Shown one piece after another: positions 22,770 to 45,905 of a stretch of DNA of 64,000 nucleotides (position 1 is its first letter; each line of letters opens with the position of its first letter). The stretch is taken from positions 122,001 through 186,000 of the forward strand of contig JBBHKE010001435.1 of NCBI GenBank assembly GCA_037447655.1, read 5' to 3'. The stretch is from Zygnema cylindricum. Its lineage: Eukaryota > Streptophyta > Zygnematophyceae > Zygnematales > Zygnemataceae. The notes beneath the pieces were generated by a model, which saw only the letters and a list, made by a program, of their open reading frames with translations, searched no databases and had not been told where the DNA came from. Both the position numbers and the translations under genes were made by a program.

Positions 22770-22818
22770 TCATCCCCTCCTTATTTTTAACTGACCTCAA
22801 TTAAAACACCTTTAATTC

Positions 22819-24303: not shown

Positions 24304-25052
24304 AACACTTATTTCAAAACATCTACTTAAAGGATCTGCGACTACATTTGTCTTTCCAAGAATATGTCTGACATTAAATTTGAAATATGCTAATTACTGC
24401 ATCCACCTAACTTGTCTACCAGTCATATCCTGTGCATCACTTAATCTCTGTAAATAAGCGATTGCTTTATTATCACAGTGAACTGTAAATTCTTTATTAT
24501 GCAAATAACAACGCCATTTCACCAATGCATGTACAATTGCAAGTAATTCCTTTTCTTGTGCTGTATTGTTCTTTTCAGCATCATTGAATTTTCTGGACTC
24601 AAAAGCAACAGGATGAAAGTGTTTGCCGACTTTTTGACTTATGACTGCACCTAGATCACACTAGTGTAGGGGAAGAGGTCAACTTCCCTTTTAGTTCCTC
24701 GAATGCTCCCTCTTGCTCAGCTCCCCACACAAACGTCTCCTTTTTTCGAAGTAAATCCGTCAAAGGTGCGGCGATCATACTGAAGTTCTTGATAAATTTC
24801 CTGTAATAAGTGGCCAATCCCAAAAACGATCTAACTTATGACATTAGTAGGTTGTTTCCAATTTTGGATTGCTAAATTTTGGATAGATCTGTTTTAACAC
24901 CTTCCCCACCAACTATGTGTCCGAAAAATAATTGTTCACTTTTAAGAAAGCTGAATTTTGACAATTTTCCATATAATTTTTTTCTCTTAACCTTTCAACA
25001 CTCTTCTTAAATGAATTACATGTTGTTCTTTAGATTCATTGTAAACTAAAAT
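24304..25052 (-). pseudogene. Gypsy B: RT C-terminal half and RNase H, degraded
   Basis: It resumes right after the Copia C insertion with the continuation of the RT palm (VYNESKEQHVIHLRRVL), then SFLGLATYYRKFIKNFS and APLTDLLRKKETFVWG, typical of the Gypsy RT thumb/connection. RNase H remnants follow in broken frames down to about 24.4 kb. Many stops. Confidence 0.8.
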
Positions 25053-26059: not shown

Positions 26060-26072
26060 CTCCCCTTATTTT

Positions 26073-26791
26073 CTAGTCTATCTTTTGCTTTAGTCCACAC
26101 TTCTCCCTACAAAATATTAATTTAGGAGAAGGAACCGGTTTAGTCATCATATCTGCTACCATCTCACCCTCTGGTTTATATTCCAAACTAATGATTTTAT
26201 TCTCAACTTTCTCCCTAACAAAGCTCAAACGAATATATATGTGTTTTGCTTTAAAATGATACTTAGGGTTAGCTGCAATTGCAATCGCAGCTTGATTATC
26301 ACAAAATATCTTTTGTACTCCATTCTTCATGTATCCCAATTCTTGAAGGAAAGATTTCACCCACATTAATTCTTTCACAGCTGAACAAGAGGCTATATAC
26401 TCAGCCTCCATGGTGGACTGAGCAATCACCTTTTGTTGCCTACTGCTCCAACAGCTAGCCCCATTCCCAACATAAAACACATACCCAGAAGTACACCTCC
26501 TCATCGGAGCATCCCCATAACTGGCATCACTCTAAGTAGTGATGTCAGTATTATCCCCACCCAGATGCAACCACAAATCTTTCGTTCCTACCAAATACTG
26601 CATGACCCTTTTGGTCGCTTCCCAATCTTTCTTCCTAGGATCACTAGACTCCTACTTAATACTCCCAAAGCTGCAGCTATATCAGGACGAGTACAGTTCA
26701 TAAAGTAGATCAAACGACCGACAACATGTCTGTACGGAATAGTTTGCATGAACTTGCTTTCCTCAAGTCCTAGCTCATTATTGAAGATCAA
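26073..26791 (-). pseudogene. Copia C: RNase H domain
   Basis: Minus-strand frames encode EESKFMQTIPYRHVVG, MNCTRPDIAAALGVLS, then, after a shift and stop near 26510-26590, RRCTSGYVFYVGNGASCWSS, STMEAEYIAS and CDNQAAIAIAANPK. This is a Ty1-type RNase H with its conserved acids. The normal end GLKQKID-stop is retained. Confidence 0.88.
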
Positions 26792-26821
26792 GACTCCCTC
26801 CTCTGAGCTCCCCTCATTTCC

Positions 26822-27614
26822 CTACTTTAGGTCCATTGGAGTCGTATAGCTATTTGCTTTTTCTATTTGAAATATTTCAAGCATATTCCCAATTGCTTCC
26901 TTTTGAGTTAGTCTAATTGTGTTCTTTTCTCTATCCCTCTCCATTTGAATTCCCAAAATGTACTTTGCCTCCCCCAAATCTTTCATTTCAAATCTACTCT
27001 TTAGATCCTTTTTCAATCTATTAATTTTCACCATTGATTTACTCAAAACAAGCAAATCATCAACATATATGGCAATGAAAATTATACCTTCCTCATCCTC
27101 AAATAAGTAGATGGAATGATCCGAACTGATTCGGATATATCCCAAACTTGTCAAAAACTCGTCCAGCTTTTTGTTCCATTGGCGTGGAGCTTGCTTTAGT
27201 CCATAAAGGGACTTTATCAATCTGCACACCTTGCTTTCTTCTCCTTTCTCCACAAATCCTTCCGGTTGTCGCATGAAGATCTCTTCTTCCAATTCTCCGT
27301 GTAAGAAAGCGGTTTTGATGTCCATCTGGTGCACTTCCATGTCTTCCGCTGCCGCGAGACTAAGTAGAATCCGGACGGAGGGGAATCTAACATCTGGAGC
27401 AAAAGTCTCCTCATAATCGATTCCCTCCTTGCTGTGTGAACCCCTTTGCCACTAATCTGGCTTTGTATCGCTCCGTAGTGTTATCTGGATTGAGCTTCAA
27501 CCTTATTACCCACTTGCATACTATTGGTTTTCTATCTAGAGGACAATCCACCAACTCCCAAGTGTTTGCTTCCATAATGGAAGCCATCTCATCTACCACC
27601 TTCCGGACTATTAA
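26822..27614 (-). pseudogene. Copia C: reverse transcriptase domain
   Basis: The frame 27340-26822 carries DIKTAFLHGELEEEIFMRQP, KQAPRQWNKKLDEF and the palm motif IYVDDLLVLSK. Upstream, 27599-27411 gives NTWELVDCP and YKARLVAKGFTQ; a shift around 27415-27430 separates them. A stop at about 26822 ends it before the RT C-terminus. Otherwise close to Copia E and H. Confidence 0.9.
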
Positions 27615-29259
27615 CTGCTTCTGAGTAAGTCTGGGGTTCGCTCAAATATGACAGCTTAGTTACCTTGTTGTTAACTTGTCTCTCTTGAAGTCTCTTGCTG
27701 CTTCTCCTTCCTCCTTCAAATTTTGACGCTGGGATGGAGGGTAATCTTAGGTTTCTTCGAACAACTTCACCTTCTCCCCTATCCGTGGAGTCCATCTTCG
27801 GTCATTCATCGTCCATTTCCTGTATTTCCTCGTTTTCTTCCTCGGTTTGAATCGGAAGTTGTGACTCTAAGAGAGGGTCACTCTCGGTCAGATTTTTCTA
27901 TACCTCTACACGGTCAAGCTGAACCGAAGTTCGGTTAGTACAATCTGCATCTAACTCAGTTTCGGATTCAATTATAATTCTGACCGGTTTAGTGTACTTA
28001 AAGGGATCTATGGATTTTCTTTCATCTATAACTACCAATTGTTTTACTAGAATTATGTCTTCTCTTCCGAGATCATAAACTCTATACCCTTTTACGTTCT
28101 CATCATACCCAAGTAAGTATCGCGGCTTTCCTCTAACATCTAACTTCCAATCAGATTTTTCTGTGTTTAAACTAAACACTTGACTTCCAAACACCTTTAA
28201 GTGTGATATGTTAGGTTTTCTCCCGGTTCATCTTTCATAAGGTGTTTGACCTTTTACAAGTGAGGTAAGAACTCTATTTTTGAGATAGTTAGCACAATTC
28301 ATAGCTTCTGCCCAAAAACTTTTCCTTATCTTTTTATCCGTCAACATACTACAGGCACTCTCACTTAATGTCCGATTTCGTCTCTCGGCTACACCATTTT
28401 GTTATGGGTTCTTTGGGACAGTCTTTTGGTGTTGAACCCCTTCCTCTTTCAAGTAATCCTCAAACTCATTAGAAGTGAATTCCCCCCCATTATCACTTCT
28501 CACTCTCTTTATAGATGTCTTTTGAAGCTTTTCACTCCATGATTTATATTCCTTAAAATAAGCCGAAACCTCAGATTTGTTTTTCAAGAAATATACTCTA
28601 GAGTATCTAGACCAATCATCGGTGATAGTAAGCATAAATCTTTTCCCTCCAACTGATGGCACTTTGGCCTGTCCCCATATGTCAGTGTGAACCAAATCTA
28701 AAACCTTTTCACCCTTATATGTTGCGGCTTTTGGAAAAGGCAATCTGTGGGCTTTTCCTTGAGCACACCCACTACAATCATCCAAAGTCTCATTATCTCC
28801 AAAATGTATGCCCTCAACTACACCCATTTTTTTCATTTCCTTTAATCTATCTAGATGCACATGTCCCAATCTTTTATACCAAATCATCAAATCACTTACA
28901 CCAACATAGTAAACTCCTGTCTTTCCATTACTCAAATTCAGCCTAAACATTCCTTGGCTACCCTTTTCAGCTGTGACGTACACTTCATTCTCATAGCTGG
29001 CAACAAAGACTCCTTTCTTAGTACTAGTCTCAAAACCCTTATCATCTAAGACCGACGTAGAGATAAGATTCTTGTTCAACTCTGGGATAAAAAGAACATC
29101 AGAGAAAGTGACTATGGATGCATTTCCATCAACTAAGACTCTCACATCCACACATCCCACTAAATTAGTGGTGACTATTCTCCCATCCCCATACTCTATC
29201 TCTACAGTAAGGATCTTTCTCATTTTGGTAAACAATGGTTTTTCTCTACACATATGCAT
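27615..29259 (-). pseudogene. Copia C: protease end, GAG-pre-integrase and integrase
   Basis: The frame 29259-28402 covers the protease tail, the pre-integrase zinc domain (HVHLDRLKEMKKMG...CSGCAQGKAHRLPF), the first catalytic Asp in LVHTDIWG and the second in RSDNGGEF. A stop after TVPKNP interrupts the motif that holds the Glu (QNGVAER, next frame). The integrase C-terminal part FGSQVFSLNTEKSDW...GYDENVKGYRVYD (28194-27898) and a linker reach the RT. Multiple stops. Confidence 0.87.
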
Positions 29260-30451
29260 AGAGCCTCTGAATCAATAATCCATCATTCTTCAGGAGCTTC
29301 TCTTACTCCACCGAAAGCACACTTTTGCCTCTTTAAAATCTCCAGCTCACCTTTCACCTCCAGCTCCTCGTTGAGGAGGAGTTCTCCATCGTCCTCATCG
29401 GAGTCCTCTCCGATGACTTGTGTTCCACAAATGCCTTCTTTTTCTTTGCTGCTGGTTTTGCGACATGTTCCTCCTTCAATCTCAGCTCTGTCAGTTTAGT
29501 ACACTCCGCCATGTAATGTCCCGGCTTCTTACAAAAGTGACAAAGCCCCTTCGGAGGCCTTGATCCAGATCCTTCCGATTGATTTCCTCTTCCCCCTCCA
29601 CCAAAGTTTCCATAAGGTTTCTTGGAATCCTTATCTCTCGAATTAGTTCCAGCAGCCAATGCCTGAACACTCTTTCCTCCTCTCCGAATCTCAATTGTGT
29701 TTTCCCGAACCAAAATCATTCCCACAACGGAGTTCCAGATCGATCGATGATCTCGCAAGTTCTGAACCCTGTTAACAATGTTTTCATAATCATCTGGGAG
29801 TTTCATCAACAAAGTATTCACCTTCTCTTTCTTGGTCTCCCTTTTTCTTGCACTCTCCAACTCCATAAATAACCCGGCGAAGTCATTACAAAAATCTAAC
29901 ATTTTTCTCCCTTTGTACACATATGCCTGTACCTTTTGATCTGCCAGCTTCTGCTGCTGAATCGTACCACTCTTGGAAATGTTGACAAGAGCCTCCCACA
30001 ACTCGTCCGCCTTGTCCACATGAAGATGAGGTGTAGCCACTGCCAGGGTGAGACGCCCGAAAATAAAATGAGTCGCCACGGTATTGTTAAAATCCCAGAT
30101 TTCACTATCATTAGCCTCGGTTTTCTGAACATCTGACACCAAAACTGATCCAGTAGGAATCAGTGTAAGTTTCTCTTTCCCCTTCTCCTTCCCTAGGTCC
30201 GACACGATGCTCTCTCCAACATCCTATTCCACATCTGGCCCCGCAAATTCTCCTGTGAACCGAGATCCTCCAAACCCTGGTGGAACTCCTAATTTTGTGG
30301 ATGGCCGACGCACACGACCACTCACAATGCCCCATAGCCGTTTTTCAACTAGTGCACCCCTCATCATGGTTTCCCAATAAATAAACCCTGTTCCATTAAA
30401 AATGGGCACCCTAGAGGGTGGGCCCATAACCTGAAACTCTGTGACCTCCAT
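29260..30451 (-). pseudogene. Copia C: gag, starting inside the LTR
   Basis: The first ATG is at 30451, 20 nt inside the 5' LTR. It reads MEVTEFQVMGPPSRVPIFNG straight through the primer-binding site. A shift near 30220 leads to the main body (30205-29354) with UBN2-like gag text and a CCHC knuckle CHFCKKPGHYMAEC near 29510-29551. The acidic/Ser tail is shifted relative to sister copies. DSG protease text follows near 29270. Confidence 0.85.
30417..30431 (-). promoter_or_regulatory. Copia C primer-binding site (initiator tRNA-Met anticodon arm)
   Basis: Minus strand GGTTATGGGCCCACC, starting directly at the LTR edge. It is a 15-nt perfect complement of the anticodon stem-loop GGTGGGCCCATAACC of plant initiator tRNA-Met, as recalled. 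It is also coding sequence (VMGPP). Confidence 0.8.
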
Positions 30452-31403
30452 TGGTCCACAAAATGTCCAGCTTATATAAAGCCTTTAGGATAATATTTGC
30501 ACTTTTGACTTTGGCAATGAATAAGTTCCATCCTGGCACGCAAAAAATTTGACCAACTACACCTCTGTGTAGCGTGGACTCCCCTGAGTCCGCAGCAAAA
30601 AGAATCAGTGAAATTGCTCCTCTGAGCATTAAGTTATGGCTGACCAAAGTTGGTCCATAAATACAGGTGCACTCTGGGAGAGAGGCTGAAAAACCAAAAA
30701 TATTGGAAGTCCTAAGCTACCTCTCTAAACCTATTACTAAGGTACTCGACCAATCACATGATTGTAAAGTACAAGAAGGTACAAGTACCTCTGTGCTTAT
30801 TGTACGGCCATAGTACGGCATGGCCAGTCCGCTGACGCGTGTCAGTTCCAGAGCCGTAGTTGCTCCTCCCGTAATATCCGCTGTCCAACCATATGTTGCC
30901 ACGTGTCATCCGCCGACATCTGGTCCGCAAAATGCCAAATTGCTATTCCGGCATTTCGGCTCCACTGTGAGCTGTTAGATCAGACCCGGACATTTGATTT
31001 CGTCCGTCGTAATTAAATGTCGATTCGTATATTTCGTGCGGTTCGATTTCGTGCGGACCGGTATGTTTCCATGCATAAATTGTCTCGTAAATTGTTAAAT
31101 GGAATATCCGGCGTCGTACGACTTTAAATAATTATCGCGTCATATAGTTGTATCACTACTTCAAGAGCTATTGGATAAGGCGGACGGCTAGTTCGTTCGG
31201 CGGTCATCCGGAGGTCTTTGGATCAAGTCCCACAACTGGCAGTCTATGTTTTGTAGAAAATTATACTAGTGATCTGCTTGTCTCTTTAGCTGCTAGAGGC
31301 AGCCATGGCTGTATGGCTGCCTGTAGGTCCTCAGTGACTACGCCAAGTATGAGGGCTGTAGTAAGGTCACAAGAAAGACTACAAAATACCTCTCTTTTCA
31401 ACA
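30432..31403 (-). repeat. Copia C 5' LTR
   Basis: 972 bp, TGAAACTCTGTG...TTTTCAACA on the plus strand. It matches the 3' LTR closely apart from the 30-bp duplication there. Hairpin near 30767-30803 and tRNA-like module near 31163-31243. Confidence 0.93.
31163..31243 (+). promoter_or_regulatory. tRNA-like A/B-box module inside the Copia C 5' LTR
   Basis: TGGATAAGGCGG at 31172-31183 and GGATCAAGTCC at 31220-31230, as in the other LTR of C. Confidence 0.55.
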
Positions 31404-32260
31404 AAAATATCATCTATAAACACTTGGACAAACTCATCTATGTAATGTGAAAAGGTTTTGTTCATTAATCTGTGGTAAGTAGGCGGTGCATTCGTTTATC
31501 TTTATGGCATCACTATCCATTCGAAATGACCCACCCTAGTCTTGGAAGCAGTTTTATCAACATCTTCAATTCTAATTGGCACTTGATTAAAGTCACTACG
31601 CAGATTAATCAACGAAAATACTTAATCACCTTTTAAACGATCTATCAAATCAGAAATTAAAGGTAACGGATACTTATCATTCACTGTAATATCGTTCAGA
31701 CTACGATAATCGACACACATTCTCAACGTTCCGTCCTTCTTTTTGATGAAGAGAACTGGTGCTCTGTACGGTGATTTGCTGGGCTGAATATGTCCTTTCT
31801 CTAGGAGTTCCTTGATATGTTTCTTTAATTCCTCCTGCTCAAAGAAACTGTGCTTATAAATTCCTGTGACAGGAGGGTTGCATCCAGGTTCAAGGTTAAT
31901 AACATGTTCCACATCTCGGGAAGGTGGCCTTCCTGAGGGTAAATCACTTGGAAAAACATCTTGAAATTCAAAAATCAAATCTTTAACAGCAACATTAGAT
32001 GTATTAATGTCAGTTACAAAATCAGATTTTTGTTTTTCGAGAGTTTTAGTGGTGTCTGATTTAGGGATGATATCAATGTTAGTGTTTTCTCCCCCCCTTT
32101 CATCACTAACTGCCTCAGTTACTAATAACAAGAAAACATGAAATGTTTTATCTTTTAAGTGCTTTTTAAATTGTTTAGCAGATATCAAACCTTCCACTCC
32201 CAATCTGGTTATGTTATTTATATGATTCATATGCAATTTATTAGGAGATAATGCTTGCAA
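31404..32260 (-). pseudogene. Gypsy B: protease-RT linker and RT N-terminal half
   Basis: The minus-strand frame 32260-31622 leads to [40 protein letters not shown], the start of the RT fingers/palm. After a stop at about 31620 it continues FSLINLRSDFNQVPI and MNKTFSHYIDEFVQVFIDDIFV. The two catalytic Asp codons of the FIDD motif are at 31409-31414. The Copia C target duplication starts one base away, so the insertion cuts RT directly behind its active site. Confidence 0.9.
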
Positions 32261-32266
32261 AACCTT

Positions 32267-32716
32267 TCAGCCGTTTTCATACTTCACTTTCAAGGTGTTA
32301 ATTTCCCAATTAATTTGAGGATTGTGTTTAGTTAACCAAGGCTTTCCCAGAATTAGTTCTTCACTTCCCAAATTCATTATTTCACACACAACTTTGATTT
32401 TATGACCCTGGATATCAACTTCTATTGTGTCAGTTTGTAAGTCTAATGTGGACTTATTACCATTTGCCACTTGAACATGTAAAGGCTTCTCCCTTATGAC
32501 AGTAGGAATTTTATTTTCCTCTACAAATCTATGTGAAATAAAATTATGTGTGGCACCTGAATCAACCATTACTCTCAACGGTTTTCCTTCCACTAATGAC
32601 TCGAATCTAATCAAACTGTGTCTGGTGTCATCATTACTTAACTGTCCTAACATAGGTTTGTTATTGAGAATTTTATCAGAAAGATTCTTTAAACTATGCA
32701 GTGTAGTGAGAATCAT
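32267..32716 (-). CDS. Gypsy B: retropepsin-like aspartic protease
   Basis: VMVDSGATHNFIS near residues 48-60 has the catalytic Asp-Ser-Gly. LILGKPWLTKHNPQINW near residue 125 is the second signature of Gypsy proteases. It cleaves the polyprotein. Open across the domain, but separated by stops from gag (32717-32932 in broken frame) and from RT. Confidence 0.9.
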   Translation of the reverse strand: MILTTLHSLKNLSDKILNNKPMLGQLSNDDTRHSLIRFESLVEGKPLRVMVDSGATHNFISHRFVEENKIPTVIREKPLHVQVANGNKSTLDLQTDTIEVDIQGHKIKVVCEIMNLGSEELILGKPWLTKHNPQINWEINTLKVKYENG

Positions 32717-32932
32717 AATAAATTCAGCTATCTAAACTTTTCCATTCATTAATTTGCCCTCCAAAGTTAATTTTTGTACTTCTGGATCTAGTTGACTCAA
32801 CTGAGGACTTTCTGTTAGTCCATTCCGTTTCCCACCTCATGTGCTTCCTACTCAGCTAGGTATAATGCAATATCCTCTTGCAGACCTTCATATACATCGA
32901 GTTTTTTGAGAGAACCTTTCTCTGTACAGTCT

Positions 32933-34136
32933 TTAGCGTAATGATGGACCTCTACATTTTAAACAAGTGACTTTCTTTTTGGGTTTTGTGCACTCTCTAC
33001 TAAAATGTCCCTCCTCTCCACAATTATAACAGTTAATCTTTTTCAGTTGTGCACACTCAAATGCTCTATTACCCTTTTTCTGACAAATAGTGCATGTGGG
33101 GATGGTAAGCTTAGGCTTCTGAGCATTAATGCTTGGTTTAGGACTCTTAGTGTAATCCCCTCTATTGTGAAATTTATTTCCTGCATTAACACTCTGTCCA
33201 CCCCTCTGATTTCCTCTAAAAAGATTTTGCCTATTCACAAGACCCGCATTCAGACCCTCTTCTATAAATTCGTCCTCACCCCATTCTAATACTTCATTGA
33301 AAATTTCCCCTGAGTGATCGAGTTTCACGACTATACCCCAACTGATCTTGTAATTCTAATGACTTATCTTGTATTTCTTTCAGATTAAGAAATTTTTGAT
33401 GTTTGAGTTTTGATTTCAGTATAGGATTCAGATAGTTCAAGAAATGCAACCTATCCATTTCATCAGTCAAACCTTTGACATAAATGCTGGATGAGTCAAA
33501 TTCCACAATATAATCTTTCACAGATTCAGTGTGCTTACAGTTCAGCCACTTCTCTTCCATTCTGGATTTATAAGTGATGGACAAGAAACGCGATTTGATC
33601 GCGGTTTTAAAAGTTTCCCAATCAACATTATCAGGAATTAAATTAGACCTTCTCTGAGTGTAATACCAAATATGAGCATCACCCTTCAGACAGCTAACAA
33701 CAAAAGAAGTATAATCATCGCGATCACAGTTCCTAGATTCCAAATAATACTCCATATGAAAAATCCAAGCATCCAACTTATCAATTTTCTTACCATCAAA
33801 TGATGGTGCTTCACTGATAGACAATTTCATATCTCTTATCTTCTTAGGTCTATCGTGATCATCTTCCCTAAAACTGGCATTTATTTTACTTTTCTCACCC
33901 TTTTGGTCATTAACATCATTCATTGTCTGAATTAAGTTAATGAGCTCATCCAATTTCTCATTTGAAACATTCCCATTTTCCTTAACAAATTTCAATTCAC
34001 TTTTCAATTCGGAAATGGTTTCATCCACAACGGCAGCATGATTATTAAATCTTTTGACCAATTTCACAGTCCGCTTCTTCAACACATTCAACGCATTCTC
34101 CATTTCGCGTTTCCATGCAGAATTTGCCATTATCAC
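32933..34136 (-). pseudogene. Gypsy B: Gag with coiled-coil N-terminus and zinc knuckles
   Basis: The frame 34136-33294 has a coiled-coil-like N-terminus, then SEAPSFDGKKIDKLDAWIFH and DWETFKTAIKSRF of the retrotransposon gag domain. A -1/+1 shift near 33300 leads to 33328-32933 with CTICQKKGNRAFEC and the CCHC knuckle CYNCGEEGHFSREC. Gag forms the particle and binds RNA. The start MIMANS at 34136 is a reasonable initiator about 750 nt inside the LTR. Confidence 0.9.
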
Positions 34137-34892
34137 ACAATGAAATCAAGCAAAAGAAAGATAGAGTATAATTTCCCAATGAAATTTGACTGCAGATTTG
34201 AAGTCCTAAGATTTTTCCAATCCAAGAATTCTTCTCCTTAACGAATCCTTTGAAAATGTCAAAATTTGAGAATAAAAAAAAAACATTGACAGTAAGTTAG
34301 TGCAAATTCAAAATTCAATTTTCCAACATTGAAACAAAGGTAAGAATTTCCCCACAAATTTTGCAACAACAAAATTGAAAGCTCTCAAAGGTAAGGTTTA
34401 ACCACAAATTTTGCAACAAAAAAATTGAAAGCAATCAGAGGTAACAATTTTGGGTTTGAAAAGTTTTGAGTCATTTTTGGACTCCTTTGCTCTTGAAAAA
34501 GTAAAGTACTCCACTTTCCTTCTCCTCCATCAGCAAATTTCCCACTTCCTACTACATCAGGATCTTTTACTCTCTTATCCTCACATCCTTACCCTTCATG
34601 GCTTCAAGCCCTCCCTCTACACATGAATCATTGCTAGGGAAGGCAAGTTTGTTTGGCCTCTAGGTAATTGGAGTGAGTTTGAGCGGTGGCTACAATGCCC
34701 ACCCCGCCTTAGTCCTTAGGACCTGAGCACGCCCCACATCTAACCAGCGGCCGCTGGCAGTGTGATCACTCAGTTTCCCTCCAATCCTCTACCACTTCAC
34801 ATTGTGGTTCTACTGACACAAGTTAAAGCACCCTCACCGGTCACGACAATCGATATTCCAGTGAGCAAACTTCTCCTTGGTTTCTAACCAAA
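34137..34892 (-). other. Gypsy B untranslated leader
   Basis: Noncoding stretch between the primer-binding site and gag, as expected for a 5' leader. A short direct repeat (CAAATTTTGCAACAA...AAATTGAAAGC) occurs at about 34356-34432. Confidence 0.7.
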
Positions 34893-34904
34893 GCTCCAAT
34901 ACCA
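34893..34904 (-). promoter_or_regulatory. Gypsy B primer-binding site, initiator tRNA-Met 3' end
   Basis: Minus strand TGGTATTGGAGC, two bases inside the LTR. It differs at two positions from TGGTATCAGAGC, the complement of the 3' end of plant initiator tRNA-Met. Confidence 0.75.
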
Positions 34905-34906
34905 TA

Positions 34907-35874
34907 TGTAACAGGATCTCCTACCTCTCAGAAAATCCCATTACTACAAACAATCCCAACCACACATTCCACACATTGGAAAATACACATCCACATTGGA
35001 CCACACTCACATAAGGATAAACTTTAAATTAGAAGAAGCTTCTGTCCACATAACATTAGCTTGGTCTCTTGCCCTCGTGGCTCAACCCTTCTTATTAAAG
35101 TGTTTTCTACTACTCTCCACTCTTAATAATTCTATCTCTTAACTACTAAAACACTATTGAGTTAGTAAGAGATTTCAATGCAAAAATGCCTTTTCTCCAA
35201 TTTGGTATTAATCGCTCAGGACCAAGATCAGCCGAAATTTCCACAAACTTTTCCAGAGGAAAAGATGTCTGCTCTCCTCGTACACTTCACTATTTATCCA
35301 TCATCGCCCTGGACTAGCCAGGCTAGAGTTTATGCTCCGTTTTAACAAGCTTTTACCTGGGCCAATCATTGATCAGCAAAGACTCAGACTGACCAATGCA
35401 AAAACGTGCGAAATCTCTTACTAATTACTTAGCACTTTACTAACCAATCGATCGTTACGTTTCACTTCGTAAAATTTACCTGCAAAAGTGCGCGCCAAAC
35501 GAAACGGGACTTCGCACGATCGTGCGTAACAAATTTCGCACGTGAAACTTCCCACGAAATTCCCTTAAGTGAAAGTGACGTTTCGTACTAAAATTTGTAC
35601 GAGACGAACGACCGTGCATACTAAACGTTTCATTAGAACTTTATGAAACGTACACGCGTAATTTCGGTACTAATTTGACCCTTAACCCGTTCAATGATAC
35701 CCACTTGTTATTTAGACCTCACGCTGTCACCTAAATACACCCATCGCTATAACTTTTAAAATATAACTCCAAATAACGTGATTCTTTCGCGGACCTCCAC
35801 CAAATTTAGTACTCTATAATCATTACAACTAAATACCCTTTTATAAACAAGTTCGATCTGCTATTACAATTACA
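34907..35874 (-). repeat. Gypsy B 5' LTR
   Basis: 968 bp, TGTAACAGG...ACAATTACA on the plus strand. It pairs with 21807-22769 and is flanked on the right by the AAATC duplication. Confidence 0.93.
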
Positions 35875-36338
35875 AAATCCTTGGTTGCAATAGTCGCATA
35901 AGAGAATGGAAGTTTTTCGTCAGCCCGGTTGCAAAGTGTGCATTCTGTAGCCTCAATGATAGGCATGCGCATGGGATCCATATCTTGAGAGAGATTCGAC
36001 AAATAACATGGGGCACAATTTTTCGAATGCTCTCTAAAAGTTTGCTTATCGGCTCCTTGAAGTCCCAACATGCCATTCGTGTCAACTTCGATAATACGAA
36101 GAATGTGGGCTGAAACATCGGTGTCCAAAGTGTCAAAGGATTGTCGCCGCAAATAGACATAATCCCACACACGGTAAGGCTTCTGTTGAGGTCGGTAACT
36201 GCGGCTATGTGTTCGGGCAAAGCACAAAGTATCTCGATGCAGGGCAATTTGAAGGTTGTTAAAAGCCATGGGAATCTCTCGAGCGAAAAGTAGCGCCCGG
36301 TTGGTTAGTTCTTCTAGAAAAACTGTGTCAGACAGCAA
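35875..36338 (-). pseudogene. Gypsy A: integrase C-terminal region and first half of PHD finger
   Basis: Minus strand: ELTNRALLFAREIPMAFNNLQIALHRD, then PYRVWDYVYLRRQSFDT and LGLQGADKQTFREHSKNCAPC, typical of the segment after a Gypsy integrase core. It then gives ATECTLCNRADEK. A one-base shift follows, and the next frame reads LLCDYCNQGF at the insertion edge. CTLC and CDYC are the first two Cys pairs of a C4HC3 PHD finger. The His and last four ligands continue at 21801. Confidence 0.85.
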
Positions 36339-36446
36339 GATAAGCGGAAAGCTTGCAGCTTTTTAGATATTCCTGCCCAACAAGGGTTGGCGCCCAAACA
36401 AGACATAGCATTGAATGAAATTAGCCAAGCTCTTCCTTACCAAAAT

Positions 36447-37080
36447 TTAATACCCTATGGCAATGTAGCTAAGTGACTCGTCCCATACTGTTATATGTTT
36501 CTCCAAACAGTGCTTGCGTAAGGCTCGCTTGAAAGTTTGAACTGCTTGTTCCGCCAATCCATCAACCTGTGGATGATCCGGACTGGTACGCAAGTGGTCT
36601 ATGAGAGCGTCATCTAACATCTCTTGGAATTCCCGGCGGAATTCTGTCCCTTGATCGGTGAGGACTTCGGCTGGAGCTCCGTATCTCATAAGGACATGTT
36701 CCTTAAATGCTGCGGTGGTGAGCTTTGCCGTTTTTTGTGGTAACGCCACCACTTCAACCCATTTGCTAGAAATTTTCAATCATGATCATTATATATTGTT
36801 TCCCCCTTCGAGATATGGGAAAGGGATTTGCCAAATCGCACGACCTGCGGTAAAATAACCCTTTGATAGTTAGTGGTTGGAGGGTAGTCTGCCGGTTGTT
36901 AAAAGAGGTGCGCAGAGGATCACATATTGCACACTTGTGCAATACTGATGTGACATCAGATTGCATCCCAGACCACCAACAGTGTGCTTGCAACACGCTT
37001 AAGGTGTGCTTGGTCCCATAGTGACCAAGCTCGGTGTGGATTTGTTCAATCAGCGAGAGGCGCTCAGTCGGGCGAGGCAC
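36447..37080 (-). pseudogene. Gypsy A: integrase zinc-binding domain and catalytic core
   Basis: The frame 37080-36766 has HTELGHYGTKHTL...CWWSGM...CAICD (HHCC zinc domain) and CDLANPFP with the first Asp. A shift near 36770 leads to 36779-36447 with EVLTDQGTEFRREF (second Asp) and SPDHPQVDGLAEQAVQTFKRAL (Glu). Confidence 0.9.
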
Positions 37081-37217
37081 GTGTCTAGAACTATTGTCTG
37101 CTAAGAATTGAACTAGTGATCCTCCTAACCAAAGAACATTTTTAGCTCTTTTCTTTACTCTTTCCTCCTCCTCAAATGTAGTGTCCGGTCAAAAAGTTTG
37201 TGAGGAGAGGAAAATAA

Positions 37218-37566
37218 TTAGTGCCTAGTCCCGCCATGGATCTGGGCAGAACGGGAGTTGGGCAGCGAGGCTAAAAAATGTGTAATATAAAACCCTACTG
37301 ACATTGTCGCTACGTCATTGTCATCGAAGTTCTGCCGGACCTTGTTGTCCATGGTCCATGGCAAAGGATTCCGAGAAATGCCGTTTGCATTCAGACTAAG
37401 TAACTCTAGGCGCTGAATTATTTCTATATCGTATTCTTGTAAAATTAATGCCAATCGCGCTTATTTTCCCGAAAGCTTATACTAAAGAGAGTATCTTTTA
37501 ACTTCTGAAAAGCTAAAATCTGATCAAGTCCCCATACGAAAGGGACCTCTTTCTTGAGCTGATTGT
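37218..37566 (-). pseudogene. Gypsy A: RNase H remnant
   Basis: It includes LALILQEYDIEIIQRL and NANGISRNPLPW, the usual C-terminal end of Gypsy RNase H. The text upstream (KKEVPFVWGLDQILAFQKLK) belongs to the RT-RNase H connection. Frames are broken. Confidence 0.75.
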
Positions 37567-38366
37567 TTAATGGTGCAGCGACTGTACTAAAACTCGGGAC
37601 AAATCTGCGATAGTAATTGGCGAATCCAAGGAAGGCCGGAGGCTTGTGAGATCAATGGGGGTCGGTAATTTGTTGATTACCTCAAATTTTGCTTCAAGCG
37701 GTGTGATTCCCTTGGAGGAAATGAAATGTCCAAGGTAAGGCACACTTTTGGACTCGCAAGTACACTTAGTTAGATGCCATTTTAATCCGCCTTTTTTCAG
37801 TTCGGTTAGGGCCCATTCAATATGAGTTGCGTGATCTTCAATTGTGGAAGAGGCAATAATCAAATCATCGATGTATCATCCTGCAAACTTGCAACCACCT
37901 AAAACTAAATCCATTACTTTTTAAAAAACTGCGGGGGCGTTGTTAAGTCCAAAAGGCATCACAAACCATTCCCAACGACCATCACTACACCAAAGGCGGC
38001 TTTATGCCTATCTTTCTCCGCTATTTCAATCTGGTTAAAACCTTGTCGCAAATCGAGAATACTAAAATATTTAGCGCCTCCTACATGATCAAATATTTTC
38101 TTGGCCAATGGCATTGGATGTTGGTCTTGTATAGTTCTAGAATTAAGTTCACGGTAATCGCCATACATTTGACGATCGGAAAAGTTTCCTTCGCCATTTT
38201 TTTTTCGAGGCATGATAGTTATTGCTGCAAAATTAGAGTCCGACAAATAAATAAGACTAGCGTCCTCAAATTCAGCGCAACGTTGATCCACTAATTCCCA
38301 TTCTGTTTCGGATAAGCTGTGTTTTTGCTTGAAAATAGGACAATCGTCTTCAAGATCTATAAACAT
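37567..38366 (-). pseudogene. Gypsy A: reverse transcriptase
   Basis: The frame 38366-37959 gives MYGDYRELNSRTIQDQHPMPL and YFSILDLRQGFNQIEIAE. After a shift near 37975 the text continues FVMPFGLNNAPAVF. A TGA at 37876-37878 directly precedes YIDDL (37864-37875). The frame 37863-37567 then gives HIEWALTELKKGGLKWHLTKC and VPYLGHFISSKGI. This is a Gypsy RT with catalytic YIDD but disabled by stops. Confidence 0.9.
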
Positions 38367-38918
38367 TTTCTAAGTTGTATGAGAACCAAGATCAATCATA
38401 GAGAAAGCGAAAGCATCGATATTCCGTAGAATCACTTTGTTTAGTAAATCATGTTCAGACTGAGAGAGATTAGCCCCAAATTTCCATTTTGGAGGTTCCG
38501 AACGTTTAATTGTCATTGCTTCTATGGCTTGTGCAAAAGCCAGCTGTTCGTCTGCGATGAGCGATTGACCTAAAGAGTAATTGACACGTGTCTGTTGTAA
38601 ACAATTTGTCCAATGATGCCAGGTACGAGTAGGAAGGCTGCCGTCCAGTGAGGAGATGTTGATGTGTGATTAGAGGGAGTAGATTGAGCAGCAGTATAGG
38701 AATGGACCATGATATATGACTGGGATTTAAGAAATTGTAGATTGTGACATCAAGAGAAGGTTTCATATGAGATGGAAAGAGGAAAAACTAAGAAAGTGTC
38801 CCTCTAATGGTGATAGGGAATCGTCTAGGTATGTGTTTAAAAATTGAAGATGTATTCCCCCCCCAGCTAGTTGAGACAGATGGGTTTGTGCGTAACCACC
38901 TGCTGCAAATCCGAGGCC
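38367..38918 (-). other. Gypsy A: linker between methyltransferase and RT
   Basis: Broken frames with no domain recognised; one minus-strand frame (38766-38506) carries no family text. In an intact element this would be polyprotein linker. Confidence 0.5.
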
Positions 38919-39579
38919 TTAGACAAATGAGAGGGATTTAGGGTCCATGACACGACCTAGAAGGATGCAGCGCTGCCGTTTTGTAAGACCATGGGAAACT
39001 GTAGTGTTGGGAAGGAAATGCATGAGGTGTTCCCGTTTTGTGGCTGTAGGCTCATCTAGGCTGCCAATGTGAATATTTATGAGCAAGCCGGGCCCATCGT
39101 CGGAGAAAGCGTGAGAGTGTGGATAAGACATAGAGTGGGGAGAACTTTGAGCGGTTGACCCGAGACGTTAATGTTGTGATTCGGTGGGTGATCAGGTTGA
39201 AGACATGTTTGGAATTAATGAAAAGCCAGGAGTGCACTCTAAATATATATAAAAGGGGGTTTGACAGAAAGATTTCCTTCTCGAAGGCGACCAATATCAA
39301 TCAAGTTTGTCCATTTAGCTCGAACCCGATTAGCTAAAGAACCGTGACGAGCGGCATCAATGATAAGAGGAGGACTTATTAATGCTTTTATCCGCTTTTA
39401 ATCAGCTAACACTGTAGGTCGAGGATCGTTATATGCTGCCACATTTTCGAAAATATATCCGAATGGTTGATCTAAATATTGCAAAAAATGCATGATACGA
39501 ACTAATTCAAAAAATAATTTAGTGTGGGGATCAGCCAAGCCGAGACCTTTGTCTGCTCGTGACATGCCTTGACAATCCC
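38919..39579 (-). pseudogene. Gypsy A: C-terminal part of DNA cytosine-5 methyltransferase domain
   Basis: Starting at the insertion edge the minus strand reads (D/E)CQGMSRADKGLGLADPHTK, motif IV with the catalytic Cys codon at 39572-39574. FGYIFENVAAYNDPRP follows, motif VI (ENV) with GAAAATGTG at 39440-39448. DAARHGSLANRVRAKWTNL is the motif VIII region with R-x-R. Past a stop and a shift, TKREHLMHFLPNTTVSHG and CILLGRVMDPKSLSF match the C-terminal motif IX/X. The enzyme class transfers methyl from SAM to C5 of cytosine. A stop inside VLAD*KRI and another near 39247 disable this copy. Confidence 0.88.
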
Positions 39580-40699
39580 TATTGAAATTTAAGTATTTTC
39601 TAGGACTGGGTTACGATAGAAAACTCTGCCACTAACTCCTTTCTCCAAGCCCTCACACTTGTTGTAGTCATTGAAGGCTGGAAAGGGAACTAGAGCCATG
39701 GCTGCCTAGGCTTTCTAGAGAGACAGGAGTAGTTTTTAATAAATTTACTAAAAAGATGTTGACGGACCAAGGATTTGATCCTGGTTCCTACTATCCGTCA
39801 AAATAGCCGGTAGCCGGCAACGTTGTCCTATAGTCTAGGAACTATGCTAGAGTATGATGTGTTTGATAAATATATAAATAGATAGACGTAGGACATTTCA
39901 TTTAACTAACAAAAGTACGGTGGAACATAGAACGTGTCGTAAACTATTGTACCACACAAAATAAATGGTGCGAACATTTATCTCAACGGCTTACCTTAAA
40001 AAGCAATCTAATCGGACGGCCGTGGTTAGCGCCAACTTCACGGAAAGGAAAATTTGGCCGTTTGCGGATGTTGCCACTCCGGATGACACGTGGCAACATC
40101 ATACGGGTTTATGGAATCTTCGGAACGGAAGACAACAAATTTGGATGTGACAAATGTCGCATTATGGCTGTGTCGTAAAATGTCCGTACAGAAAGTTCAC
40201 CTGTACTTTCTTGTACGGTACAGTCCTGTGATTGGTCAGCATTTCTGTACTAGGGGGTTTAGTGAGAGGTTTAGGACTTAGAATTATTTGGATAGGTGGC
40301 CGCCTCTCCTAGAGAGCATCTTTTATAAAAGTCAAACTTTGGTCAACCATAAGAATCAATTTACTTGACCATTTTGAGTGATTTTTTTTGCTGCGGACCC
40401 AGGGGAGTCCGAGCTACATAGGGGTGTAGTCGGTCACAAATTTTGCCTGCCAGGGTGGATGCATTTCAAAGGGGAAGTCAAAGTTGGTGAATGTGTCCAA
40501 AACTCATATTCTAACTTTGCATTCTGTGGTGGAATTGAGCACACAGAAAGTCTTATTTCACAAGGGTTAAGCAGTATTGGGGTTCTGATTGTCAAGGGGT
40601 CAATCATGTGGGTTTTTATCAACTTGGAGTCGGCACTAACTAGATAAGCTTCTTTGGACCTGCGAATTCTATTGGGGGAATGGACCCCATAGAATTACA
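39580..40699 (+). repeat. Copia J 5' LTR
   Basis: 1120 bp. Antisense tRNA-like segment with GGATTTGATCC at 39771-39781 inside TGACGGA...TCCGTCA-type arms. U3 hairpin GTACAGAAAGT...ACTTTCTTGTAC at 40185-40218. TATA-like TTTATAAAAG at about 40320. Stem-loops GGACCC..GAGTCC and CTACATAGGGGTGTAG at 40388-40433. The gag ATG lies at 40680 inside the LTR. Confidence 0.9.
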
Positions 40700-42793
40700 A
40701 GTTATGGGCCCACCATCTAGGGTGCCTATGTTTGATGGAAAAGACTTCACTTATTGGGAGTTTACGATGGAGGGATTGCTTTTCGAAAAGCACTTATGGT
40801 GAATTGTTTGGAGACAAGTGAGGTGTCCACCACCGGGCTTCGGTGAAACTCACTATGGAGATTCATCTGGGGCTTCCCAGAAAGCTAACCGGAGTCCGGA
40901 TGCAATAGTAGGTGAAGGAAAAATCATTGGCATGGAAGAGGAAAAAAGGGAGAAGGAAAAATGAACACCTATGGCGAAGGGAGCTAGACTCTCGGCTACG
41001 GTTCCACTTGTGGGGGTTATAACTAAACCAAAAACTGAGGAAAATGACATAAAAATTTGAGAATATAAAAACACTATTGCAAAACATCTCATACTTAGAT
41101 ATGTGTCTAAGTCCATAGCTATCACTCTTTAAAATCTAACCAAGTCTTCGAAAATCAGGGAAACACTAATTCAGATTTATAAGAGTGAATCTATACAGAG
41201 GCAGCAATTAGTAAAACAGGAAATAGAGGCCTATGTTTATAAAAGCGGTAGCAAGATAGAGTTTTGCAATGATATTGTTGCATTATATGTTGAGTTTGCT
41301 AGTGCAGGTTATGTAGAATCTGAGGTGAGAAAGATTAACACACTAATCATAAAACTTCCAAATGAGTACGAAGACATAATTTACCGTATGCAGGCAATGG
41401 ATTGCTCCTCATGGACTTGGAGAATTAACATGGGGATGATTCTTCTGAGGGAAAGCACATTGGAGCTTGGTAGGGGAAGTGACAAGGTGAATGCACTGAC
41501 AGCTGGTGGTGACTGGCGGAAGCGTGATGAGAGGAACGACGATGACGAGCGAAAGCGAGATAAAAGGAATGAAGGTGACGAGCGGAAGCGTGATGAGAGG
41601 AAAAAAGACAAAGATAAACCTTATCGGAACTTCGGTGGAAAGAGAGGGAGAGGAAAAGAAAGGGGAGCTTTGAAAAAAGGGTTTGCTTCTGTTGTAGGGA
41701 ACCGGGTTATTGTATGGAGGAATGCCCTTGTTTGGAAGAACTTAGAAGTTAGTATGTGAATGAGGAGGAAGAAGGGGAATAGGAGAAAGAGGATGAAGAT
41801 ATTTTGGAGCTTCTTCACATCAGTAGAATGGAGAAGAGAGAAAAGCACACACAAATTCCACGAAAGCAACAATGTGCTTTTGGAGGTATAAGGGAAGTAA
41901 AGAGAGGGGAGTTACTTGAGGATGTCAAAGAGTGTAGTGTATGACTTAGAAATGAGAAAGTCAGATCTAGGATCCATAATTGATAAAGGGAAAAATAAAA
42001 ATAATGAGGATAATTCCATAGATAATTTGGAAACAGAAAACTGGTCGTAAAGGGAGAATTCAACGGATTCCGTGGAAAGGGGAGAAGTAAATCCAAAGGG
42101 GGGATCAAAGGATAGGGGAGAAGAGGAATATTTGATTAAAGGTTTAGGGGAGGAGAAATATATTTTGGGAATAAAAATAGAAAGTGATAGTAGAAAGAAT
42201 TCCATGGAAGAGAGTGAGGAAAGTTCAGAAAATGGGGTAATTATCACGAATAAAAATATGAGTTCGGAAGATGTAGAAGTTATGAAAACTTTAATAAGGA
42301 CTAGTGATTTTTGGGAAAATTTGGGGGAAGATGGATTTGACAAAACTCATAGGAGTGATGCCATCTATCAAGGTGTGCCTGTAAAAGGGTTAGCATCTGT
42401 GTATTCTGTGTATCTGCTGCAGGCTGAGGATGGGGCTAGCATCTGTGTATTCTGTGTATGTGCTGCAGGCTGAGGATGGGGCTGGCTGTTTGAGCTGCAA
42501 GTGGGAATCTGGTTTTTGCTCGGATGAAAAAGGGATGAAGTGGATAAAATCCTTGCTCCAAAAGCCCGGATTTATGAAAATGGCATGCAAAATAAAATGT
42601 GTGATGCAATTATTATTTCGATTCATCTAGTACACTGTTTCAAATACAAAGGTATTTTCTTAAAGTTTAATAAATGGAAAAAAAGGGGGGGGAGAAAGAT
42701 GTTTGTTGTTATTTGTTTTTTTTTTGTTTGTTGTTTTTTTTTGTTATATTAAGTGTGAATTGAAAGAAAAAGTAGACTAGAAAATAAGGGGAG
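40680..42793 (+). pseudogene. Copia J: decayed gag plus RT/RNase H scraps
   Basis: Gag begins MDPIELQVMGPPSRVPMFDG at 40680 through the primer-binding site AGTTATGGGCCCACC (40700-40714). It continues with FTYWEFTMEGLLFEK, stops, then a frame 41325-41759 with the gag C-half and a charged RKRDERN repeat. A knuckle-like CFCCREPGYCMEEC in another frame (His replaced by Tyr) lies near 41665-41710. Protease and integrase are missing. KYILGIKIESDS (RT) and SVYSVYLLQAEDGA (RNase H) scraps lie at 42.1-42.5 kb. A 46-bp tandem duplication (42391-42436, 42437-42482) sits in the RNase H scrap. Confidence 0.8.
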
Positions 42794-43924
42794 TGTTGAA
42801 ATTTAAGTATTTTCTAGGTCTGGGTTAGGATAGAAAAGAGCAGAGGCAGTCTGCCTCTAACTCTTTTCTCTAAGCCCTCACACTTGTTGTAGTCATTGAA
42901 GGCTGGATAGAGAGCTATAGCCATGGTTGCCTAGGCTTTCTAGAGAGACAGGAGTAGTTTCTAGTAAATTTACTAAAAGGATGTTGACGGACCCAGGATT
43001 TGATCGTGGTACCTACTGTCCGTCAGAATAGCCGGTAGCCGGCAGCGTTGTCCTATAGTCTAGGAACTGTGCTAGAGTATGATGTGTTTGATAAATATAT
43101 AAATTTATAGACGTAGGACATTTCATTTAACTAACGAAATTACGGTGGAACATAGAACGTGTCGTAAACTATTGTACCGCACAAAATAAATGGTGCGAAC
43201 ATTTATTTCAACGGCTTACCTTAAAAAGCAATCTAATCGGACGGCCGTGGTTAGCGCCAGCTTCACGGAAAGGACAATTTGGTCGTTTGCGGACGTTGCC
43301 ACTCCGGATGTGGCAAGATCATACGGGTTTAAGGAATCTTCGAAACGGAAGACAACAAATTTGGATGTGACAAATGTCGCATTATGGTTGTGTCGTACAA
43401 TGTCCGTACAGAAAGAACTCCGACACCTGTACTTTCTTGTACGGTACAGTTTTGTGATTGGTCAGCATTTTTGTACTAGGGGGTTTAGTGAGAGGTTTAG
43501 GACTTAGAATATTTTGGATAGGTAGCCGCCTCTCCCAGAGAGTATCTTGTATAAAAGGCAAACTTTGGTCAGCCATAACAATCTATTTACTTGGCCATTT
43601 TGAGTGATTCTTTTTGATGCGGACTCAAAGGAGTCCGCGCTACACAAGAGTGTAGTCGGTCAGATTTTTTGCCTGCCAGGGTGGCTGCATTTCTAAGGGG
43701 AAGTCAAAGTGGGTGAATGTGTCCAAAACTCATATTCTAACTTTATATTCTGTGGTGGAAGTGATTACACAGAATGTCTTATTTTAAGGGGTGAAGCAGT
43801 ATTGGGGTTTTGATTTTTAAGGGGTCAATCATTTGGGTTTTTATCAACTTGGAGTCGGCACTAACTAGATAAGCTTCCTTGGACCTACGAATTCTATGGG
43901 GGGAATGTACCCCATAGAATTACA
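42794..43924 (+). repeat. Copia J 3' LTR
   Basis: 1131 bp following polypurine tract AATAAGGGGAG. Same features as the 5' LTR: GGATTTGATCG at 42996-43006, hairpin at about 43406-43442, TATAAAAGG at about 43549. Confidence 0.9.
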
Positions 43925-44446
43925 CTCCCAACTGGCAAAGAGGTAATTGATTGGTTCTACATCAAGAAGGTGTTGATGGCCTATCAAACGAATGTCTTGA
44001 GGTAAGGTTGTGTGCATGTAAGCATACGCAGATTTGGGAAAAAGATGTGGATATTGTACGTGTAAAAGATTGCAGTGATGTGTCTGTGCTTTCCGGGCTA
44101 AAAGGTTAGTGTCGACTGAGTAGTAGTGTCTGATAAGTAATCCGTTGTGTAGGCACGAGAGCATAGAGGTACCAATGCTTGCGAATAGATCTAAAATGAC
44201 CAAACCATCTCGATGAGGCTTGAGCTGAATTGGTTTCCAATTAATGGGAAGAAAACCTGAAGGATCTACTGAAATCAGAGGAGGGGATGGAACTCGCGAT
44301 AAAGGAATCTGAATGTTGTGTTTGTAAATGTGATCAAACTCGCGAGAATCAATAATAAAACCTGGATTATCCAAAAGTTCCGGCAAAGAAGGACTGTCGG
44401 GCAAAATTTCCTCATCGGGTAGAGAATGGAAAATTTCAAATCCCAT
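43925..44446 (-). pseudogene. Gypsy A: N-terminal part of DNA cytosine-5 methyltransferase domain
   Basis: Minus strand: after an acidic linker (FHSLPDEEILPDSPSLPELLD) comes LVILDLFASIGTSMLSCLHNG, motif I (the SAM-binding DLF-x-G-x-G pattern with S for the first G). YYSVDTN follows at the motif II position, then HQHLLDVEPINYLFASWE, which runs into catalytic motif IV. The domain continues at 39579. The frame is one base off from the protease frame upstream. Supposed translation past 43925 runs into Copia J LTR and is meaningless. Confidence 0.87.
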
Positions 44447-44459
44447 CGAATTTCCGTAA

Positions 44460-45087
44460 TAAGTAGGGGCGGATTAGGCTGCGTGAGCCATAATGGGTAT
44501 GGGTTGTTTGTTGAAATTAGAGGAAGGCAAATTTTCTTTTCCGGGTAATTGGTAGGACGGTATGAAAATGTCTGATCGTACATATCAACAGCGCCTCCTA
44601 CTCTGAAAATCACATCTCCCCCTACTAAACAATCATAGTCAATACACTTGGTGACCAATGCGTGAGCACAGACTTGCGCAAAATAAGATTCTGTACCATT
44701 TTGAAACCTAAAATAGAGTGGATCCTTTGTAATGCCCAAAACTGGTTCTGTAGTTCTCGCTGAGGTGAGTAAACGTGTGGTGGTGGACTGAAGTTTATCA
44801 GTTGTCAGACCTAGTTTTAGTGCAAAAGATGACCCCAAAATAATTGGTTTTGCACCGGTGTCTATAAGTGGTAATGACGGTGTGACACCATTGACTGAAA
44901 ATACACCCTTCCCAATATCCAGAAAACTGATGTGTGGGTCTAGTGAACTACGCTCTTCGGCAAAGATAGGCCTAAGAGCTTCCAAATTACGGTTCATTTG
45001 CAAAGCTTGTAAAGTTGCCAATGGGACGGATGAGACGGTAGATTTAGGGTTGAGAGAGTCGAAAATCATAGTGGATAAAATGCACAA
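44460..45087 (-). pseudogene. Gypsy A: retropepsin-like aspartic protease
   Basis: GVTPSLPLIDTGAKPIILGSS near residue 75 carries the catalytic Asp-Thr-Gly. DYDCLVGGDVIFRVGGAVD near residue 150 is the second conserved segment. The readable frame ends near 44465 and the methyltransferase frame takes over, so the two are joined by a one-base shift (mutation or programmed). Confidence 0.85.
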
Positions 45088-45141: not shown

Positions 45142-45880
45142 TTATGGCGTGATGGTGGAAGCTGTTTCGGGCAAATTAGCTACGGTCTCTTTGGAAAATG
45201 ATAATGGAATACGCGCAATAGACTGCTTACCCTGGTGATTGTGATCAACGGTGCCCTTTTCAAATATGGTTGCCCGTTTTTGGATGGTTGAATCTCGTAA
45301 AACCCGACCACCTAATGTGGGAAGGTGGACAACTGTACGAGCCATACCAGTAAGCTGAGCAGGCCGTTTCATTTGAGCCATAAGGGTTGCAAAGTGGTCT
45401 TGATCATGGTGGCCATTTGAGTTTGCATTTCCTTCCTTTCTCTTTCTCTCCGAGACACTTTAGGTGGCGAATCTTTTTCTGTTTCTTTCATTGGTTGGAC
45501 TATTTTGGCAGATCAAGCTGGAATTCCGACATTTCGGAATCTGATTTTGATACGAAAATTTAGGGTTTTTGATGTGACAACGATGAACAAAATGGCCAGT
45601 CTGTCTGCTGTGCGTACAGGTCGCAGATTTATCTGTGCGTACAGGTCGCAGATTTATCCGAACACATCAGAGAACCGTGCCTGGTCTTGCTATATGCGAT
45701 TGGATGGTTGATTTGGTGGAGTTCCCATGGCTGGAACCCTCGGTGGCCGATTATTGGGCCCTAAGTTACGAGGATTTGGTTGATTAAAAGGATTTCATTA
45801 TTTTTGAGGAGCTTTTGTCGATCGTGGGCTTCCCACCAAAAATTTGTCATCTCGTATTCTACCGCGAATTGAGCGGCCTG
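45142..45880 (-). pseudogene. Gypsy A: gag remnant with degenerate zinc knuckle
   Basis: Broken minus-strand frames. QPNPRNLGPNNRPPR (about 45.78-45.70 kb) is Pro/Asn-rich gag linker. CTHSRQTGHFVHRC (about 45.63-45.58 kb) keeps CCHC spacing but has Ser for the second Cys. PPKVSRRERERKEMQTQM and MAQMKRPAQLTGMART follow. A short tandem duplication (GTGCGTACAGGTCGCAGATTTATC twice, 45608-45659) lies next to the knuckle. The gag start and 5' LTR are not identifiable beyond the GA tract. Confidence 0.65.
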
Positions 45881-45900
45881 GTCAAAGGTAAATTTGAGAC

Positions 45901-45905
<5 letters not shown>

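Follow-up and report, generated by a model that had tools for sequence, protein, structure and literature searches.

The stretch analysed here, hereafter the window, is 64,000 nt of DNA from the streptophyte Zygnema cylindricum (assembly GCA_037447655.1, contig JBBHKE010001435.1, positions 122,001 to 186,000). Its minus strand holds an old, broken Ty3/Gypsy-type retrotransposon with a methyltransferase (MTase) in Pol, in the domain order protease, MTase, reverse transcriptase (RT), RNase H, integrase and PHD finger (Table 1). A preliminary description had listed MTase motifs between a DTG protease and a Gypsy RT on this strand, and all of them were located in that order. The protease DTGA sits in the open reading frame (ORF) 45141-44278 and motif I (DLFASIG) near 44.17-44.19 kb, followed by the Cys-Gln-Gly of motif IV and the ENV of motif VI in ORF 39598-39401, RVRAKWTN in ORF 39397-39242, TKREHLM..LLGRVMD in ORF 39167-38922 and RT in ORF 38369-37962. 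The element is far longer than 38919-45087, the extent first given for it, and runs from 45904 down to 20199 with two later insertions breaking it. Alignment of the window to one sister copy (C1848) at the DNA level covers 45904-43922, 39579-37481, 37480-35875 and 21806-20199 at 76-85% identity, and the recognizable 5′ limit is the end of this match, at a (CT)n tract and a 10-N gap. No terminal repeats flanking the copy were found within 33.4-50 kb; the 3′ end proved to be at 20.2 kb. Repeats in the order B-A-B are present at 21677-20199, and the 5′ repeat A was not found. The window copy is dead, because its reading frame is broken by a stop at 39398-39400 and by frame changes.

Table 1 Parts of the element and its insertions in the window, in the 5′ to 3′ direction of the element.
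Feature	Position	Strand	Evidence
gag-like remnant (capsid tail and zinc-knuckle-like stretch)	45463..45904	-	by eye against sister frame
Retropepsin-type protease with DTG	44542..44958	-	PF13650, E 3.1e-4, below its cut-off; 74% identity to sister protease, 139 aa
MTase N part, motif I up to the residue preceding the catalytic Cys	43925..44206	-	sister MTase residues 1-98, 70%
copia J insertion splitting MTase motif IV	39580..43924	+	5-bp target duplication with one mismatch; Kimura two-parameter (K2P) distance of its long terminal repeats (LTRs) 0.081
MTase: motif IV Cys, ENV, RxR; one in-frame TAA	39131..39577	-	PF00145, 1.3e-4; DNMT3A, 5.6e-5; sister residues 94-242, 73%
MTase C-terminal part with motif X region (LLGRVMD), different frame	38922..39161	-	sister MTase residues 233-312, 64%
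Reverse transcriptase	37687..38369	-	PF00078, 1.1e-6 and 1.4e-7; 76-81% to sister RT
RNase H remnants, middle missing	37365..37636	-	tblastn with sister domain, two pieces
Integrase: H2C2 zinc binding and DDE core	36366..37086	-	PF17921, 2.6e-13; PF00665, 5.2e-8
PHD finger, first part	35875..35960	-	by eye; sister PHD PF00628, 1.5e-9
14-kb nested insertion within PHD finger	21807..35874	.	own LTRs 34907-35874 and 21807-22769, ~965 bp, 95.8% identical; 5-bp target duplication AAATC
PHD finger, second part	21736..21804	-	sister PHD residues 29-51, 74%
Repeat B, first copy	21481..21677	-	92.9% identity to 20199-20393
Repeat A, second copy	20394..21480	-	matches sister repeat A
Repeat B, second copy; 3′ end of element ..CACGACA	20199..20393	-	comparison with first B copy

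Taken alone, the window gives firm sequence matches for no more than the central part of the MTase. The motif IV-VI piece (39598-39401) matched PF00145, the family against which a check had been proposed, at E 1.3e-4, but its 21.9 bits lie 0.1 bit under the curated cut-off of 22, and the N piece had no family match in Pfam, PHROG, NCBIfam or PADLOC. When its single TAA was counted as an amino acid, the piece 39598-39242 found DNMT3A as the best solved match (5.6e-5), then DNMT3C and DNMT3B, the first bacterial enzyme being M.HaeIII (0.45). In family libraries the same piece matched the phage MTase family phrog_363 best (5.2e-7), an orphan-MTase model (4.6e-6) and dcm (2.8e-4). Phage MTases are 28-34% identical to the C piece among 20 listed of 126 records. 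Against the window ORFs, a profile of eight phage MTases ranked the motif IV-VI piece 1 of 1,018 listed (E 2.2e-10), a circular and optimistic figure because the eight proteins had been found with that piece as query. The same profile ranked motif VIII 2 of 1,018 and motif I 3 of 840, and left the motif X piece unsupported (about rank 158 of 907). Queried one at a time against solved structures, the protease and the N and motif X pieces gave nothing useful, and no relative was returned by protein-database searches with the window MTase pieces or by IMG/VR scans with four window pieces and one prokaryote contig scan.

The weak pieces were settled by the sister copies, because a sister MTase of 312 residues aligns across them (residues 1-98 at 70%, 94-242 at 73% and 233-312 at 64% identity). 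In the host assembly (352.8 Mb, 2,689 contigs), PF00145 gave at least 123 scored matches from 782 candidates, all above cut-off, and the window MTase N piece at least 150 scored matches from 1,069 candidates at 56-100% identity, the 100% being the window itself. Twenty stretches of 10 kb were fetched, chosen for a PF00145 match and, in most cases, for long open frames. The open frames surrounding the MTase in these copies range from 112 to 2,395 aa, and RT was located in 17 of the 20 copies. All 12 fetched copies of the window's clade have the protease and RT in the same 10 kb, which bears out that the MTase belongs to the element. The check for an intact frame succeeded as well: in one fetched sister a single frame stays open from the gag-like part through to the PHD finger, and others keep long stretches of it. 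As encoded, two sister frames match PF00145 (2e-11 and 2.2e-11), RVT_1, RNase H, H2C2, rve and PHD (1.5e-9 and 2.4e-4, the latter under cut-off). The first of these two is the longest frame (2,395 aa), in which the PHD finger is C-terminal, RNase H is matched by two Pfam models and a zinc knuckle scores weakly (0.0086); its protease was recognized through its resemblance to that of the window. PF00145 is also present in all nine members of the MTase set A1. Two further observations concern single copies. In L031, an inverted repeat (4192-4446 and 9277-9531, 74.5%) surrounds the MTase, and RT was not found in the fetched 10 kb; at G000:C961:71839-72543, an RT lies within a 5,743-aa open frame, the longest among the matches listed. 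Both belong to the P-C-Q clade described next.

The MTases form two clades, E-C-Q (12 fetched copies and the window) and P-C-Q (8 fetched copies). Between one E-C-Q frame and the P-C-Q copies L020 and L021, identity is 42% in the MTase (~312 residues), 47-49% in RT, 62-64% in RNase H and 54-56% in integrase. Within the P-C-Q clade, 19 RT copies were taken, blind to the MTase, at roughly even steps from 150 scored of 3,233 candidates, and the 1.7 kb upstream of each was inspected. MTase sequence was found in 17 of the 19, with at least 305 of 314 residues in 14 and partial sequence in 3; the remaining 2 had none. With three of the four MTase pieces weak from the window alone, the stretch might have come to lie next to a Gypsy element by chance, for instance as a piece of a host gene. 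The large family with the same domain order and long open frames, and the MTase upstream of copies picked blind to it, leave that explanation next to no probability, and a host-gene or chance origin of the MTase was ruled out by the sister copies.

MTase distances track those of RT, RNase H and integrase (r 0.96-0.97; none of 2,000 permutations as high). The MTase-RT correlation (r 0.97) comes largely from the split between the clades; inside the E-C-Q clade it is 0.71, again with none of 2,000 permutations as high. A single MTase capture preceding the clade split would be the simplest reading. The ratio of non-synonymous to synonymous substitution rates (dN/dS) of the MTase could be computed for 8 of the 16 pairs, those in which dS was usable, giving 0.16, 0.34, 0.24, 0.53 and 0.11 in E-C-Q and 0.13, 0.24 and 0.12 in P-C-Q. 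The value of 0.53 comes from L030 and L036, both broken copies; in the other eight pairs dS was saturated and dN was 0.11-0.42.

By alignment, the C5 cytosine MTase signature (motif I, catalytic Cys, motif VI Glu and R-x-R) is present, and the canonical Pro before the catalytic Cys is absent from the window's clade. The Cys and the motif VI Glu-Asn are conserved in the 17 copies compared for their motifs and in the window, the last motif VI residue varying among V, I and M; R-x-R is kept in all aligned copies except L036, which lost the first Arg. In the window itself, the codon before the Cys falls in the target duplication of copia J and reads Glu on one side and Asp on the other.

A profile of nine MTase domains, searched against solved structures, returned only DNMT3A, DNMT3B and DNMT3C as its first 29 sequences (7.3e-18 to 2.6e-13), followed by M.HaeIII (3.9e-7), M.HhaI, DNMT2 (2.4e-6) and DRM2 (1.4e-4). 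The alignment to DNMT3A puts both motif I and the motif X region where they belong, though each is weak alone. This ranking suggests that the MTase of the element is DNMT3-type; as between DNMT3 and phage enzymes, the assignment rests on ranking among solved structures, a set in which no phage MTase of the phrog_363 kind was noticed. The ranking also bears on the possible substrate. The target might be RNA rather than DNA, for instance the genomic RNA of the element or a tRNA primer, as has been proposed for SymbioLINE-Dnmt (de Mendoza et al. 2018, PMC5890265), but with DNMT3 as the closest solved kin and DNMT2 far behind (2.4e-6 at best) we regard an RNA target as improbable.

Behind the integrase, the element carries a C-terminal PHD finger that was missed in the preliminary description and is split in the window by the 14-kb insertion. 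It was found in 10 of the 12 fetched E-C-Q copies. Among the best 60 of 86 matches, the best for a profile of this finger include PHF12, KDM5-type, BAZ2B, WSTF, ORC1B, BAZ2A and ATXR5 fingers. KDM5 PHD1 and the BAZ2 and ATXR5 fingers read unmodified lysine 4 of histone H3 (H3K4). On this likeness, the finger of the element is a predicted reader of H3 without H3K4 methylation. In a limited literature search, no earlier report of a Gypsy element with a PHD finger stood out.

The ends of the element were examined in six copies with flanks (C1344, C829, C1915, C1374, C1848 and C544), and split direct repeats in the order A-coding-B-A-B are clear in four, three from the E-C-Q clade (C1344, C829 and C1915) and one from the P-C-Q clade (C1374). 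In the three E-C-Q copies the terminal repeats are 98.8-100% identical: in C1344 the A repeats, 931 bp, are 100% and the B repeats 99.6% identical; in C829 the values are 98.8-99.8% for A and 99.5% for B; and in C1915 they are 99.3-100% and 99.5%. In C1374, A is 97.4-98.5% and B 99.5% identical, and an extra B and about 3.7 kb stand ahead of the terminal B-A-B. This 3.7-kb stretch (L021/L046, G000:C1374:31633-35348), which may be an insertion or an extended 3′ region, has in its L046 part three frames of 105-176 aa, none recognized by eye. C1848 is irregular, with A at 82-93% and a B-like stretch (97.7%) additionally to the left of the first A, and the repeats of C544 are only 68-74% identical. 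One junction read per clade has a 2-bp GC between B and A. By eye in two copies, the E-C-Q ends read TGTCATGCC...CACGACA, and the 4-bp duplications beside them are TTGG and AAGG. In the window copy, the two B repeats differ by a K2P distance of 0.064 over 195 bp, too few sites for ordering against copia J.

The two insertions and the flanks of the element hold further sequence. By eye, copia J (39580-43924) looks internally deleted, with a plus-strand gag-like frame at 41133-41759 and pol only as scraps; further copia J LTR sequence, in parts about 74-90% identical, lies upstream of the element at 48664-49833. The 14-kb insertion contains frames that by eye resemble Gypsy (31.6-34.1 kb and 23.2-24.4 kb) and a nested copia (26.1-30.2 kb). 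On the plus strand, the frames 14338-14946 and 16368-18572 look by eye like hybrid histidine kinase exons, covering the HATPase end and the receiver domain and separated by CT-rich introns.

The design of the element has a precedent, and the mention in the preliminary description of retrotransposon MTases in charophytes and dinoflagellates was correct, the cases being Klebsormidium nitens and Symbiodinium (PMC5890265). KnitGypsy-Dnmt3 of K. nitens has been described with a DNMT3-related MTase in the Gypsy Pol frame, DIRS-like split repeats (Fig. 4 legend) and an MTase under purifying selection (de Mendoza et al. 2018, PMC5890265). In yeast assays of isolated catalytic domains, those of SymbioDIRS-Dnmt3 gave de novo CG methylation (PMC5890265). 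DNMT3 members embedded in retrotransposons, termed LTR Copia and DIRS, are mentioned with citation of the 2018 paper in PMC12344493, and a role in defence is discussed in PMC6338049. Going by the published description, the element shares with KnitGypsy-Dnmt3 a DNMT3-type MTase in Gypsy Pol, DIRS-like repeats and low MTase dN/dS, and differs in its 352.8-Mb host assembly, its many copies, the PHD finger behind the integrase and the E-C-Q clade. The K. nitens genome is smaller than this assembly. The word PHD is absent from the main text of the KnitGypsy-Dnmt3 paper (PMC5890265). SymbioDIRS-Dnmt3, as described, also has DNMT3 in Pol and split repeats, but it has a tyrosine recombinase. The tyrosine recombinase and lack of target duplication typical of DIRS elements contrast with the DDE (rve) integrase found here and the 4-bp target duplications in the two copies read.

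With MTase in Pol, Gypsy RT, RNase H and DDE integrase, and A-coding-B-A-B repeats all found, the element is by its design a DNMT3-bearing Gypsy like KnitGypsy-Dnmt3, a kind described from K. nitens in 2018 and thus in itself not new. New, as far as we have seen, are the PHD finger, the E-C-Q clade, the combination of split repeats with 4-bp duplications, and the size of a family with near-identical repeats in a host whose assembly exceeds that of K. nitens; if the K. nitens elements carry a PHD finger too, the novelty reduces to that of a new member. Chromoviruses similarly place a histone-reader-type domain behind the integrase, but theirs is a chromodomain, of which none was among the Pfam matches of two sister frames, whereas here a PHD finger is joined by an MTase. 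Chromodomains tether the integrase of chromoviruses to chromatin. Animal DNMT3A, the closest solved kin of the MTase, is accompanied by a PHD-like zinc domain (ADD). Here, unlike in DNMT3A, both MTase and PHD finger lie within a retrotransposon polyprotein; neither PWWP nor ADD was among the Pfam matches of the two sister frames.

We propose, with moderate confidence, that this Ty3/Gypsy element carries a DNMT3-type MTase that would likely methylate the element's own new DNA, and a PHD finger that is predicted to tether the integrase to chromatin free of H3K4 methylation. Made within Pol, the MTase would be present where the cDNA arises and would methylate the new element copy or its landing site, and the PHD finger would hold the integrase on chromatin lacking H3K4 methylation. 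We infer the enzyme activity, the element's own cDNA as substrate and the PHD ligand, and with them self-methylation and PHD-steered integration, from sequence comparison.

Several observations weigh against this proposal. All 12 fetched E-C-Q copies have Glu in place of the Pro that precedes the catalytic Cys, whereas P-C-Q is found in 5 of 5 aligned copies of the sister clade, and this Glu may weaken catalysis. In yeast, the isolated domain from K. nitens produced no methylation, in a test that its authors judged inconclusive as DNMT3B failed too (PMC5890265). The window MTase piece scores 30.1 bits with phrog_363 and 26.5 bits with DNMT3A, and the DNMT3 kinship is read from profile ranking. 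Last, the PHD finger was found in 4 of the 8 fetched P-C-Q copies (one with a stop) as against the 10 of 12 in E-C-Q; it is diverged there (2.4e-4, under cut-off), and its dN/dS is 0.49 in the single P-C-Q pair with usable dS. The first two of these points also suit a different role, in which the MTase fold of the window's clade would have lost methyl transfer and would instead bind DNA or RNA within the polyprotein, the Glu before the Cys marking the change. The Cys and the Glu-Asn of motif VI retained in the aligned copies, the R-x-R kept in all but L036 and the MTase dN/dS of 0.11-0.53 speak for an enzyme, and we consider such a binding role unlikely.

An extension of the proposed self-methylation is offered only tentatively, as a possibility that we hold to be somewhat doubtful. 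The lineage may possess a read-write chromatin kit with which it would read H3K4-unmethylated chromatin, land there and methylate its own copy on arrival, one clade doing so through a new Glu-Cys-Gln motif. By analogy, the DNMT3-type writer in Pol and the PHD reader on the integrase might then form a counterpart to the catalytic and ADD domains of DNMT3A.

Retrotransposons are usually silenced by DNA methylation, and a methyltransferase of their own makes the weapon a tool. The 2018 report described two such lineages, with an inconclusive test for the Gypsy one (PMC5890265). Here, the family is large and some of its copies still have near-identical repeats, its two clades have different catalytic motifs, and a reader-type domain adjoins the integrase; comparison of natural copies can therefore test both the role of the enzyme and the landing sites of the element.

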